The notes under the pieces are model-generated. The model was not told the origin of the DNA, searched no databases, and worked only from the letters and a program-made list of their open reading frames with translations. From positions 7,369 through 71,368 of the forward strand of contig PHEB01000011.1 in assembly GCA_002842735.1 (NCBI GenBank): a DNA stretch of 64,000 nucleotides. The letters run 5' to 3'. Shown piece by piece: positions 3,443 through 57,688 of this stretch (position 1 is the stretch's first letter; every line of letters starts with the position of its first letter). This DNA comes from Alphaproteobacteria bacterium HGW-Alphaproteobacteria-7. GTDB taxonomy: Bacteria; Pseudomonadota; Alphaproteobacteria; Sphingomonadales; Sphingomonadaceae. Position numbers and translations under genes: made by a program.

Positions 3443-3499
3443 GTGAGGAAGTTTTGCCCGAACTCTCACACAATGCAACCTTGGTGCAACCTTGGTGAG

Positions 3500-3567
3500 T
3501 CCCCGCGAAGGCGGGGATCTCAGGCAGAATTGCTCAGACCATCCGGAGGCCCCCGCCTGCGCGGGGG
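3500..3567. repeat. Paired-hairpin palindromic repeat (intergenic copy)
   Basis: There are two hairpins with tetranucleotide loops: TCCCCGC-GAAG-GCGGGGA at 3500-3517 and CCCCCGC-CTGC-GCGGGGG at 3550-3567, joined by a spacer containing CTCAGGCAG. The architecture and spacing match the two copies inside glyS (55495-55562 and 55825-55892). The element lies between the M28 peptidase start and the DUF805 gene. With this repeat, the 178-bp gap from 3443 to 3620 holds no gene. Confidence 0.85.
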
Positions 3568-3620
3568 TGCACTCAGGATCAGTAAGCGCGCGCGATCAGG
3601 ATGCGTTAGGCAGGTCCGAG

Positions 3621-54104: not shown

Positions 54105-56753
54105 TCATCCCTCGATCCGGCTGAAATCCGCGACCCGGTGCACCGCATCGCGAAACCGCGCGAGCAGCGCCAGCCGCGCGGTGCGTTTGTCCGCTTCGTC
54201 GGCGTTGACAATAACCTCTTCGAAGAAGCGGTCGATGGGCGCGCGCAAGGTCGCAAGCGCCGCCATCGCATCGGCGAAGCGCTCTGCCTCCACAGCCTCG
54301 GCCGCGCGAGGGGCAGCAGCGGCAAGCGCATCGATCAGCGCCTGTTCGGCGGGTTCGGGGGTGTAGGATAGCGCCGCGCCCTCCCCGATCCGGGGAGGTG
54401 GCAGCGGCGCAGCCGCTGACGGTGGGGATTTGCCCCCAATGCCGGCGCTTGCGGCAGAGTCCCCTCCACCACCCTGCGGGCGGTCCCCCTCCCCGTCCCG
54501 GGGAGGATAGTTTTCCTTCTTCAAGATATTGGCCGCACGCTTGTAACCCGCGAGCAGGTTCGCACCATCCTCGGTCGTGACAAAGGCCTGCAGCGCTTCA
54601 GCCAAGACTACCACCCTAGATACATCATCCTGCAAACGAACATTGGGGAAATAGAAGAATTTCCTGGTTAGATGACGTTGCGATGGCTCCAAGCCAGGCA
54701 ATTCTATCTTTATCTTTCTGTTGTCGATGCGAACCCCTTTCGGCAGGAGCGCATCGATGAGGTCAGGTCTGATACCTTCGCGGCGAGAACGTTCGCGTAA
54801 TCGTTCAAAAACGTATTCGTTCACAGCATTTACGACATCGACAAAGCCAACAAACTCAAACCTTACGCCGCCAGTCTTACGGATTTGATCGGGGCACCAC
54901 ATAGGGCTACCGGCTTCATCTAATAACGCGGAAAGTAATGGGGGCTTATCTCGCAACGCCCAAATTTCCAATGATCTCGAAAGGTAGGCTGGACCATTCA
55001 CAAGAACGGACGGAGAAAGCAACTCACTGAGAAAGCCCCCGTCCAGAGGGTCTGATGCGAGAGATGGATGTCGATCAACCAGCCCGAGCGCGTGCAACCT
55101 GTAGTCTTCAGAAATGAGTTCTCTGAACGATGTTGTGACTTTCGCCGATAAAATTAATTCAATAATTGCGAGCGCCGCCCTGCGCAGTGCGAACGGATCC
55201 TTTGACCCTGTAGGCCTCTCGTCGATCGCAAAGAATCCAACCAACGTATCCAACTTATCCGCCAACGACACAGCCACCGTCACCGGCGCGGTCGGGACGT
55301 CATCGCCCTGCCCGACCGGCTTGTAGTGATCGCGGATCGCTGCGGCGACTTCCTGCGGCAGGCCTTCCTTGGCGGCGTAATATCCGCCCATAAGGCCCTG
55401 CAATTCTGGGAATTCGCCGACCATTTCGGTGACCAGATCGGCCTTGCACAGCCGCGCGGCCTGTTCGGCCATGTTGGCCAATTCATTCTTCGTCATGCCA
55501 GCGGAAGCTGGCATCTCGGGCGTCCGTGCGCTTCTGCCTGAGACCCCAGCTTGCGCTGGGGTGACGATGTCGGATTCAACCAGCCACCGCGCCAGCTTGG
55601 CAACGCGATCAACCTTGTCGGCGACCGTGCCCAGCTTCTCGTGAAAGGTGATCCGCGACAGCCCCTTGGCGTGCTCGGCGAGCGTTTTTTTCTGATCCTG
55701 CTCCCAGAAAAACCTTGCGTCAGATAGCCTTGCAGCCAGCACCTTGCGATTGCCATCAACCACCACTGCCGGGTCAATCGCATCAATATTGGCGGTGCAG
55801 ATGAAGGCGTTCGCCAAAATGTGAGTCCCCGCGCAGGCGGGGACCTCAGTCGATTGTGCGCCACTGCCTGAGGCTCCCGCCTGCGCGGGAGCTCGCGTAG
55901 CGACAAAATACTTCTGGTTCACCCGCGCGGTGAGCTGGATGACTTCGGGCGGCACATCCAGGAACGCCTCGTCAAAGCGCCCAAGCAGCGGCACCGGCCA
56001 TTCGGTCAGCCCGGCGTTCTCGATCACCAGCCCTTCGTCCGCCACCAACGTCAGGCCCGCGTCCGCCGCAGCCTGCGCCGCGCCGTTGCGGATAATCGCG
56101 GCGCGTTCTTCGTGGTCGACGATGACATGGCAGGCGCGCAGTTTCTCGGCATAATCGTCCGCGTTGCCGATGGTGATCAGGCCTTCATGGTGGAAACGAT
56201 GCCCCGCAGTTTCACGCCCACTGGCGATGCCACCGACCTCGCACGGCACCACTTCGCCATCGAGCAATGCGACAATGCCCGAAAGCGGCCGCACCCAGCG
56301 CAGGCTCTCAGTCGCAATCGACGCTGCGCCCCAGCGCATCGACTTGGGCCAGCTGAAGTCGCGGATGATCGCGGGGATCGCTGCGGCCAGCACGTCTGCC
56401 ATCGCCCGGCCCGGTTGCTCGATCACCGCGAAGTAAGTCATCCGGCCTTTGATGTCGCGCAGTTCAAGTGCGGCACGTTCAACACCGGCCTTGCGGCAGA
56501 AGCCATCAATCGCGGCATCGGGCGCGCCTTCAGGCGGGCCTTTGGCTTCCTCGCTCACCGCTTCGGTCGCCAGCGGCAATCCGCGCACGATCAGCGCAAG
56601 GCGGCGCGGGGTTGACCAGATGGTAAGTTCACCCACCGCAACGCCCGCCGCGTCCAGTTCACGCCGGAACAGCTTTTCCAGTTCCGCACGCGCACCCGCC
56701 TGCATCCGGGCCGGGATTTCCTCACAGCGCAGTTCGAGCAGGAAGTCGCTCAC
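54105..56753 (-). CDS. glyS: Glycyl-tRNA synthetase beta subunit, unusually long
   Basis: The beta subunit of the alpha2-beta2 glycyl-tRNA synthetase. It starts at GTG 56753 inside the glyQ stop (GTGA). The length is 882 residues, against about 690-770 usually. Canonical blocks [23 protein letters not shown], the catalytic-core regions and the C-terminal [24 protein letters not shown] are intact. The excess is three palindromic elements read in frame (54380-54506, 55495-55562, 55825-55892) and an AT-richer segment at about residues 530-720 (about 54590-55160), with no likeness to the usual GlyS region. No internal stop is present. Confidence 0.92.
54380..54506. repeat. Palindrome-bounded element inside glyS
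   Basis: The 127-bp segment is bounded by CCTCCCCG-ATC-CGGGGAGG (54380-54398) and CCTCCCCG-TCC-CGGGGAGG (54488-54506). An internal hairpin CAGCGGC-GCA-GCCGCTG lies at 54402-54418. It is translated in frame into a Gly/Pro/Ala-rich stretch (PPRDGEGD ... PPPRIGEG) between conserved glyS blocks. This differs from the two-hairpin family of the other two copies. Confidence 0.8.
55495..55562. repeat. Paired-hairpin palindromic repeat inside glyS (copy 2)
   Basis: Two hairpins, ATGCCAGC-GGAA-GCTGGCAT (55495-55514) and ACCCCAGC-TTGC-GCTGGGGT (55543-55562), each have an 8-bp stem and a four-base loop. They are separated by a spacer with CTGCCTGAG near its end. The element is translated in frame as [11 protein letters not shown] ... 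MPASAG. Same architecture as 3500-3567 and 55825-55892. Confidence 0.87.
55825..55892. repeat. Paired-hairpin palindromic repeat inside glyS (copy 1)
   Basis: GTCCCCGC-GCAG-GCGGGGAC (55825-55844) and GCTCCCGC-CTGC-GCGGGAGC (55873-55892) are joined by an inner pair CCTCAG (55844-55849) / CTGAGG (55868-55873). The frame across it reads [11 protein letters not shown] ... VPACAG. The same PAQAG...PAxAG peptide pattern appears in copy 2, as expected if one element type inserted twice in the same frame. Confidence 0.9.
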
Positions 56754-57688
56754 AACACCCACCCCGGATATTTCGCTTCCCATTCGGGCGTCATCTTTTG
56801 CGCATAGGCCTCACACGAAGACCGCGCCAGATCGCGCACCCGTCCCATGTAGCTGGCGCGTTCCTGCACCGAAATCACGCCGCGCGCCTGCAACAGGTTG
56901 AACACATGGCTTGCCTCAACCGCCTGTTCATAGGCCGCAATCGGAACACCTGCGGAAAGCGCATTGCGGCATTCAGCCTCGGCTTTGGTAAACAGGTCGA
57001 ACAATGCGACTGTATCCGCCACCTCGAAGTTCCACTTCGACATCTGGCGCTCGTTCTCAAGGAACACCTCACCGTAAGAAACCCCGGCGGCGTTGAACGC
57101 CAGATCATAGACGTTGTCGACGCCCTGAATATACATCGCGAGCCGCTCCAACCCGTAGGTAAGCTCGCCCGCCACCGGCTTGCAATCGAACCCGCCCATC
57201 TGTTGGAAATAGGTGAACTGCGTCACCTCCATCCCGTCACACCAGACCTCCCAGCCCAGCCCCCATGCGCCAAGCGTGGGCGATTCCCAGTCATCCTCGA
57301 CAAAGCGGATATCGTGCGCGAGCGGGTCGATACCGATGGCGCTGAGGCTTTTGAGATAGAGCTCCTGAATGTCCGGCGGCGAAGGCTTCAGGATCACCTG
57401 ATACTGGTAATAATGCTGCAACCGGTTGGGATTTTCGCCATAACGCCCGTCGGTCGGGCGGCGGCACGGCTGCACGAAGGCGGCGTTCCACGGTTCCGGC
57501 CCCAGCGCGCGCAGGGTGGTCGCGGTGTGAAACGTGCCCGCCCCCATGCGCATGTCATAGGGTTGCAGGATCACACAGCCCTGCGCGCTCCAGAAGTCAT
57601 GGAGGTTCAGGATCATGTCCTGAAACGAACGAGCCGGATCGCGGGCCGGCAGGCCTTGGGCGGGCGTAAAAGAAGGGACGGCGTTCAT
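56750..57688 (-). CDS. glyQ: Glycyl-tRNA synthetase alpha subunit
   Basis: The catalytic alpha subunit, which binds glycine and ATP. It has 312 residues with [20 protein letters not shown] near residue 20, then [39 protein letters not shown] and [15 protein letters not shown] 57688 is used; ATG 57616 is a possible shorter start, since most homologues begin close to SFQDMIL. The stop overlaps the glyS GTG by four bases. Confidence 0.96.

Follow-up and report, generated by a model that had tools for sequence, protein, structure and literature searches.

In-frame palindromic repeats in glyS of a sphingomonad and at shared loop sites of GlyS in its relatives

How two copies of one palindromic repeat came to stand in the same reading frame of an essential gene is the question raised by the stretch of DNA analyzed here (the window), which comprises 64,000 nucleotides (nt) of contig PHEB01000011.1 from Alphaproteobacteria bacterium HGW-Alphaproteobacteria-7. 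The gene is glyS (54105..56783, minus strand), coding for the glycine--tRNA ligase beta subunit of 892 amino acids (aa). An earlier, sequence-only reading had described two paired hairpins in glyS (55495-55562 and 55825-55892), likened them to the palindromic elements of Rickettsia and proposed, from their common peptide frame, that an open frame is under selection or that the repeat had an ancestral role as coding sequence. The two features are probably mobile, selfish dimers of the repetitive extragenic palindrome (REP) type, tolerated in disordered surface loops that became recurrent landing sites.

Both copies were found at the positions first described; each consists of two hairpins (8-bp stem, 4-nt loop), and their spacers are related. 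Using a covariance model, the head-to-head dimers were delimited at 55817..55898 (E = 1.1e-18) and 55487..55568 (E = 5.3e-17), both on the minus strand. The former, at site 1 of GlyS, is read as a 26-aa peptide (aa ~296-322) and the latter, at site 2, as a 25-aa peptide (aa ~406-432). The copies are 71% identical over an ungapped 62 nt, and the peptides in the glyS frame are PAQAG...PASAG and PAQAG...PACAG. None of 200 dinucleotide shuffles was as stable as the native sequences (z = -4.84 and -5.08). In six genome copies, the two-hairpin structure contained 16 pairs in two helices, with 96.9% of cells paired and 8 of the 16 pairs altered on both sides. The copy at 55487-55568 carries a terminal CGTC tag (CGTC ... 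GACG), which is GYGM instead in 55817-55898 and in many other genome copies. Complementary A-T at the first and second stem positions, a trait given for CGTC-1 REPs, varies among copies; among the four glyS arms, both are present only in the second arm of 55487-55568. A known RNA family was rejected, as only two microRNA models matched, far below gathering scores.

The glyS open reading frame (ORF) is uninterrupted, and its product matches TIGR00211 with 651.7 bits (cut-off 300). This is the single TIGR00211 place in the 2.66-Mb source genome. Dimeric glycyl-tRNA synthetase (GlyRS; TIGR00389) was not found in that genome by a search that gave matches in 14 of 14 control genomes, above cut-off in seven. 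A disrupted glyS accompanied by a second GlyRS was ruled out on these grounds. GlyS searches placed the source genome in the same genus as E. sanguineus. As the sequence-only reading held, the host of these hairpins is a free-living alphaproteobacterium, and the gene that contains them codes for an essential synthetase.

A structure of GlyS was predicted with AlphaFold2 from 58 aligned sequences (mean predicted local distance difference test score, pLDDT, 81; predicted template modelling score, pTM, 0.74). The model resembles GlyRS beta of E. coli (7yse_C; TMt 0.85, TMq 0.62, 28% identity). Besides the two REP dimers, glyS contains a third, different in-frame palindromic repeat at 54376..54508 (minus strand; site 3, aa ~759-803), and all three inserts are predicted as low-confidence coil. 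Strands E291-296 and E321-330 flank site 1, where pLDDT falls below 50 at 302-318. Site 2 is coil between helices H386-402 and H431-444 (pLDDT below 50 at 412-419), and site 3 falls within coil 756-809 between helices (below 50 at 765-786). By sequence, the E. coli equivalent of site 1 is in a turn near residues 289-298 and that of site 2 between residues 378 and 384.

The covariance model, built from six copies, was searched over the source genome. Scoring was carried out for 150 of 1904 first-look candidates, of which 149 passed, and matches on both strands were merged by hand. At least 149 matches were thus obtained, representing 78 distinct places; this census is a lower bound because only those 150 candidates were scored. 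By inspection, 70 of the 78 places are full head-to-head dimers, singletons being under-counted because a dimer model was used. Two subtypes were distinguished, one CGTC-tagged and one GYGM-tagged with GC-richer stems. At least two other palindromic families are abundant in the same genome, with 28 matches for the GEGDR type, to which the site-3 palindrome belongs, and 65 for the EPVEG type (both strands counted).

Sixteen places, chosen by hand, were found in frame within 14 genes, based on codon-usage scores of the flanks and on protein family; the right-flank score was weak in two of them (IleS aa 355-384 and Fmt). Host genes above the NCBIfam cut-off encode GlyS (two copies), IleS (two copies), PdhB, UvrA, RsmE, MutS, EgtB and Fmt. 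Hosts below the equivalog cut-off, which are named less surely, are a carboxyltransferase subunit, a biotin carboxylase subunit, QueE, MtaB (356.3 versus 357.05), a NirA/sulfite-reductase-like protein and an RlmI-like methyltransferase. Many of these genes serve tRNA, rRNA or DNA repair (GlyS, IleS, Fmt, RsmE, QueE, MtaB, the RlmI-like protein, UvrA and MutS). DNA repair and RNA genes as REP hosts in other organisms are also remarked upon in the available part of Di Nocera et al. 2013 (PMC3733652).

The proposed selection was examined by this genome scan. Coding copies were depleted: an automatic classifier scored 15 of 77 places as in-frame coding, versus 733 of 1315 random positions taken away from the elements. 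The classifier is rough, scoring 56% of random positions as in-frame coding. For the 16 coding copies, the frame of the first arm was a0 (PAxAG) in six, a1 (SPRRRG) in one and a2 (SPRxGGD/HPSESWD) in nine. Openness of these frames was determined in 55 non-coding full dimers read in both directions (110 readings), of which 35 were open in a0, 54 in a1 and 74 in a2. Openness alone would give 3.4, 5.3 and 7.3 copies, from which the observed numbers differ weakly (Monte Carlo p = 0.046). No one reading frame is preferred among the coding REP copies, and the shared PAxAG frame largely follows from open-frame availability. Because coding copies are depleted and three frames are used, the frame shared by the two glyS copies is no evidence for peptide selection, and this part of the sequence-only reading was largely contradicted. 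A dimer at L054:3001-3084 (G000 C37:11130-11213) splits rlmN, whose N- and C-terminal halves lie in different frames before and after it, a sequencing error being possible. Such an out-of-frame copy is as expected for frame-blind insertion.

For comparison with relatives, GlyS matches were obtained in 98 of 100 genomes of the genus, the source genome included. Ninety loci were taken, of which 85 had one complete ORF and five were set aside; the matches left out were that of G071 and seven fragmentary ones. A search of the family gave matches in 148 of 149 genomes and 29 new best-scoring loci, to which 80 were added by scanning named genomes. GlyS was complete at 107 of the 109, and after removal of 12 duplicates the overall set comprised 180 non-identical Sphingomonadaceae GlyS proteins. 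Among the duplicates was GlyS of E. sanguineus DSM 11032 (L224), which repeats L107, a protein filled at site 2. The genus sample was evenly drawn; for the family, best-scoring loci were chosen, which makes that sample uneven. Repeats were labeled with regular expressions devised in this analysis, and occupancy counts depend on those patterns.

Long GlyS insertions are confined to the same three sites, apart from a hypervariable stretch, the natural site-3 loop and a handful of isolated insertions around aa 9, 184 and 198. Site 1 was filled in 17 of 180 proteins (genus, 9 of 85), and recognized repeats stood at site 2 in 78 (genus, 26 of 85) and at site 3 in 35 (genus, 16 of 85). At least one of the three sites held a repeat in 91 of 180 proteins, and none did in the remaining 89. 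Coding repeats other than REP were labeled EPVEG, DPGSR, GEGDR, GEGPGVG, LAGGAGGG, GRGLGEG, RLERSR and GTGRGT. Eight peptide labels occur at site 2, GTGRGT and GEGDR being taken as one. Grouped by reading of their stems, the site-2 repeats appear to represent at least four unrelated hairpin types, namely REP, a CCGTTCG...CGAACGG group (EPVEG, RLERSR), the DPGSR group and a G-rich CCTCCCC...GGGGAGG group. Folding was computed for 13 inserts, all of which form strong hairpins (z = -2.66 to -10.5). Three non-REP types, GEGDR, EPVEG and LAGGAGGG, are repeated genome-wide; counting both strands, EPVEG has 26 matches in G075 and LAGGAGGG has 25 in G040, 88 in G096 and none in the source genome. These other repeats are likewise palindromic and coding in GlyS, but their hairpin sequences differ from REP, so that they are alike in behavior only. 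In the close relative G007, site 1 is empty and site 2 holds a different repeat, but site 3 agrees with the source genome in kind of repeat.

The length of the site-2 stretch could be parsed in 162 of the 180 proteins (18 unparsed) and was strictly bimodal, with 31-41 aa in 84, 55-92 aa in 78 and none between. Directly before the next helix, L-A/V-x was found in 77 of 78 long loops, regardless of repeat type, and in 2 of 84 short ones. One of these two, L269, retains a clear part of a G-rich repeat, and the other, L244, possibly carries a remnant. At the junction, 31 of 77 filled alleles, belonging to several repeat types, encode the Leu by TTG, a codon that makes up 11.6% of all Leu codons in these genes; at four other leucines conserved in the filled proteins, it was used in 2/78, 0/78, 1/75 and 11/69. 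Unfilled relatives lack the junction sequence, being mostly GDPDLAEQ-like, not LADLAEQ. With unfilled relatives differing at the junction, a common insertion target at site 2 was not visible.

Site-2 occupancy was mapped on a FastTree phylogeny based on 541 core columns of GlyS alone, weak nodes not being collapsed. Presence required 53 changes, versus a mean of 58.9 and a minimum of 49 in 300 shuffles; repeat type required 72 (shuffled mean 74.7, minimum 67). Among the 79 filled alleles alone, type changed 40 times, against a mean of 42.1, and 51 of 500 shuffles were as low. Site-2 occupancy and type thus carry little phylogenetic signal, with occupancy distributed almost at random over the GlyS tree. 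Two alleles look like in-place replacements, judging from their junctions. At site 2, the close relative G093 has the left junction VESDIVTP, as at the CGTC repeat of the source genome, but continues into a GYGM REP that is read in a different frame; the REP at site 1 of G093 is in the same frame as in the source genome. In L247, VESDIVTP is followed by a DPGSR-type arm.

The best-scoring 30 IleS loci from the 100 genomes, including that of the source genome, were compared in the same way. The loop at aa 521-548, which holds an insert in the source genome, contained a CGTC REP in four loci, G-rich repeats in three, an EPVEG-type repeat in one and an LDTNG-type repeat in one; it was short or non-repeat in the other 21. 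For the second insert of the source genome (aa ~355-384), long insertions were found elsewhere among these loci only in G015 and G094, both repeat-like. One IleS loop behaves like the GlyS sites, being filled by unrelated palindromic repeats in relatives.

Tolerance of foreign sequence in GlyS is also to be seen against a low-GC stretch at 54639..55142 (minus strand; aa ~548-715), which is hypervariable and is not a palindromic repeat. Like the site-3 palindrome and a further REP dimer of the window, this stretch (~54640-55142) was absent from the sequence-only reading. Its GC content is 0.494, versus 0.636 and 0.669 on the flanks, and GC was below that upstream in 93 of 94 such stretches of at least 60 aa. 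In 21 of the 25 closest genus pairs shown, identity at aa ~548-655 was 0.15-0.30; the pairs are the best 25 of 100 with a core identity of at least 0.88, variable parts left out. In one example, the cores are 0.967 identical and the stretches 0.25. Between the source genome and G007 these values are 0.937 and 0.19, and 0.835 across all 713 core columns, variable ones included. In the remaining four pairs, the stretch was identical or had an identity of 0.90. A stretch of at least 50 aa occurs in 113 of the 180 GlyS proteins, and these 113 form 88 clusters. Many species whose cores exceed 90% identity have almost unrelated stretches, and distant species at times share one: G016 and G042 have 94% identical stretches and 77% identical cores. 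A known repeat motif was present within the stretch in 1 of 180 proteins. A known domain or a phage origin was rejected, since no Pfam match was obtained for seven sequences from six genomes and no phage match for the sequence of the source genome. In IleS of the same genus, a similar stretch was seen at aa ~276-335 (L304-L333), where the source genome differs from G007.

Two further features of the window were recorded. The third REP dimer copy lies at 3493..3576 on the plus strand (C20:10861-10944; E = 5.3e-16), and the best codon-usage coding score of its flanks was 11 on the left and -9 on the right. The glyQ gene, encoding the glycine--tRNA ligase alpha subunit by family match, overlaps glyS at 56750..57688 (minus strand).

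How the elements relate to known systems was then considered. REPIN/RAYT systems, as studied by Bertels and Rainey, are said to contain paired REPs forming one long hairpin. The elements described here likewise consist of paired REPs, but no REP-associated tyrosine transposase (RAYT) flanked by the repeat was found in the source genome; the search covered Y1 transposases. The sole full-length Y1 match, L103:4402-4887, is an IS200 TnpA (152.5 bits against a cut-off of 55; REP_Tyr_transpos 37.9 against 80), and no REP-like hairpin was found within 9.5 kb of it. A further, partial Y1 match is located at C27:4322. Mobilization by a RAYT was rejected, the full Y1 gene being IS200. Rickettsia palindromic elements (RPEs) were reportedly described by Ogata et al. 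in 2000 and 2002. The REPs of the source genome resemble RPEs in being in frame in genes with intact frames, family scores and predicted fold, which suggests that these genes remain functional. They differ in measuring ~75 bp or 25 aa, in using three frames, in occurring in a free-living genus and in being coding in a minority of copies, while RPEs have their own conserved peptide. RPEs are palindromes of 105-146 or ~150 bp in frame in conserved, apparently functional genes, according to the available parts of PMC10969869 and PMC2229807.

A closer relationship is seen with the CGTC REPs of Di Nocera et al. (PMC3733652), cited here from its available part. Intragenic CGTC REPs are reported there, some of them in genes for tRNA synthetases in E. 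litoralis and S. alaskensis, and no transposase is linked to the family. RPE-6 is assigned to CGTC-1, and the parallel with Rickettsia drawn by the sequence-only reading is supported. The insertions are argued there to be possibly neutral, being in linkers or loops. Features common to CGTC-1 and the family described here are the 8-bp stem, the 4-nt loop, head-to-head dimers, a conserved spacer, many copies mostly outside genes and no linked transposase (for the present family, among Y1 transposases). In contrast, the present family is often GYGM-tagged and has a mostly CTC tail; CGTC-1 has a CGTC tag and a 3-nt tail that is mostly CCA. Because the tail is mostly CTC and that paper gives CCA for most, not all, CGTC-1 REPs, the elements are classed here as of the REP type and near CGTC-1, without membership of CGTC-1 being taken as proven. 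Sites shared with unrelated repeats are not described in the available part of that paper, apart from different REPs near the same recB site in two Xanthomonas species. A literature search with thin coverage of subscription journals gave no paper that describes different repeats occupying the same loops of synthetases, although glyS may be listed in Additional file 3 of PMC3733652. The in-gene REP itself is thus of a known kind, and multi-repeat landing sites in essential synthetases appear new.

The following course of events would account for these observations. REP-type palindrome dimers, CGTC-tagged and with the related tag, would have multiplied in the source genome as what is most likely non-autonomous selfish DNA, and landed in glyS. 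Insertion would be blind and followed by purifying selection, by which most gene-hitting copies are lost and survivors remain in tolerant loops; in essential genes, these would keep the frame open within a disordered surface loop. GlyS would then retain its fold and carry 25-30 extra residues as a passenger loop. Once the site-2 loop had been opened, new repeats may replace old ones in place, as the right junction, the bimodal length and the two chimeric alleles suggest. More tentatively, loop 2 of GlyS, together with an IleS loop, may be a standing landing site in the Sphingomonadaceae, with one ancient opened allele marked by LADLAEQ in which unrelated mobile palindromes swap in place and in frame faster than species diverge. 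Several observations count against the proposed course. The hypervariable stretch, reaching 50 aa or more in 113 of 180 proteins, contains a known repeat motif in just one, and tolerance may not explain everything because this stretch takes almost no repeats. In-place replacement is deduced from two chimeras and a shared junction, and interspecies exchange of alleles could look identical. No transposase for the repeats was identified when the source genome was searched for Y1 transposases, and the use of frames deviates weakly from that expected (p = 0.046).

Other explanations were weighed against blind insertion into tolerant loops. The scatter at site 2 might stem from horizontal exchange of short glyS segments, with filled and empty alleles, instead of repeated insertion. 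Occupancy changes slightly less often on the tree than in shuffled data (53 against a mean of 58.9), G016 and G042 show the near-identical stretch between diverged cores, and the filled junction is common across alleles; yet linked differences span, by eye, only a few codons around the loop, and within the 79 filled alleles there remain 40 changes of repeat type. Exchange is rather unlikely as the explanation. Sequence- or structure-specific targeting of the sites in place of tolerance filtering would fit the enrichment of TTG at the junction (31/77, compared with the 11.6% background and the four other leucines) and the near absence of repeats from the hypervariable stretch. We consider it improbable, as the junction sequence is absent from unfilled relatives, no common target is visible and different repeat types would need one target.

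A role of the mRNA hairpin, which would slow ribosomes between domains or tune stability in glyS and ileS so that any palindrome suffices, agrees with the strong folding of 13 of 13 inserts despite their different sequence types and with the position of sites 2 and 3 between helices. Mobile palindromes, however, form hairpins regardless, 89 of 180 species lack a repeat at all three sites and the IleS loop is, by its sequence, short or non-repeat in 21 of 30 loci; such a role is quite improbable. Very improbable, finally, is that REP is kept as a coding module through selection of the PAxAG peptide or of an open frame. Frame a0 was used by six copies against 3.4 expected, all six have the 82-nt model-match length with PAxAG-like peptides at both ends, and the frame is kept by the six site-1 REPs of the genus set and by that of G093. 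Against this, coding copies are depleted, 10 of 16 use other frames, unrelated peptides stand at the same GlyS sites and site 2 of G093 contains the other REP subtype in a different arm-1 frame.

Coding palindromes have so far been treated as a speciality of Rickettsia, together with stray REPs. GlyS offers a dense natural series, in which the same loop is empty or holds many repeat types across 180 proteins. This makes it testable whether intragenic palindromes are passengers without effect, act as devices in the mRNA or supply new protein parts, and by what means CGTC REPs, for which no transposase is known, move. Annotators and structural biologists should be aware that repeat DNA accounts for much of the variation in GlyS length among Sphingomonadaceae. 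Parts of an essential protein seem to be reusable parking places for mobile DNA.

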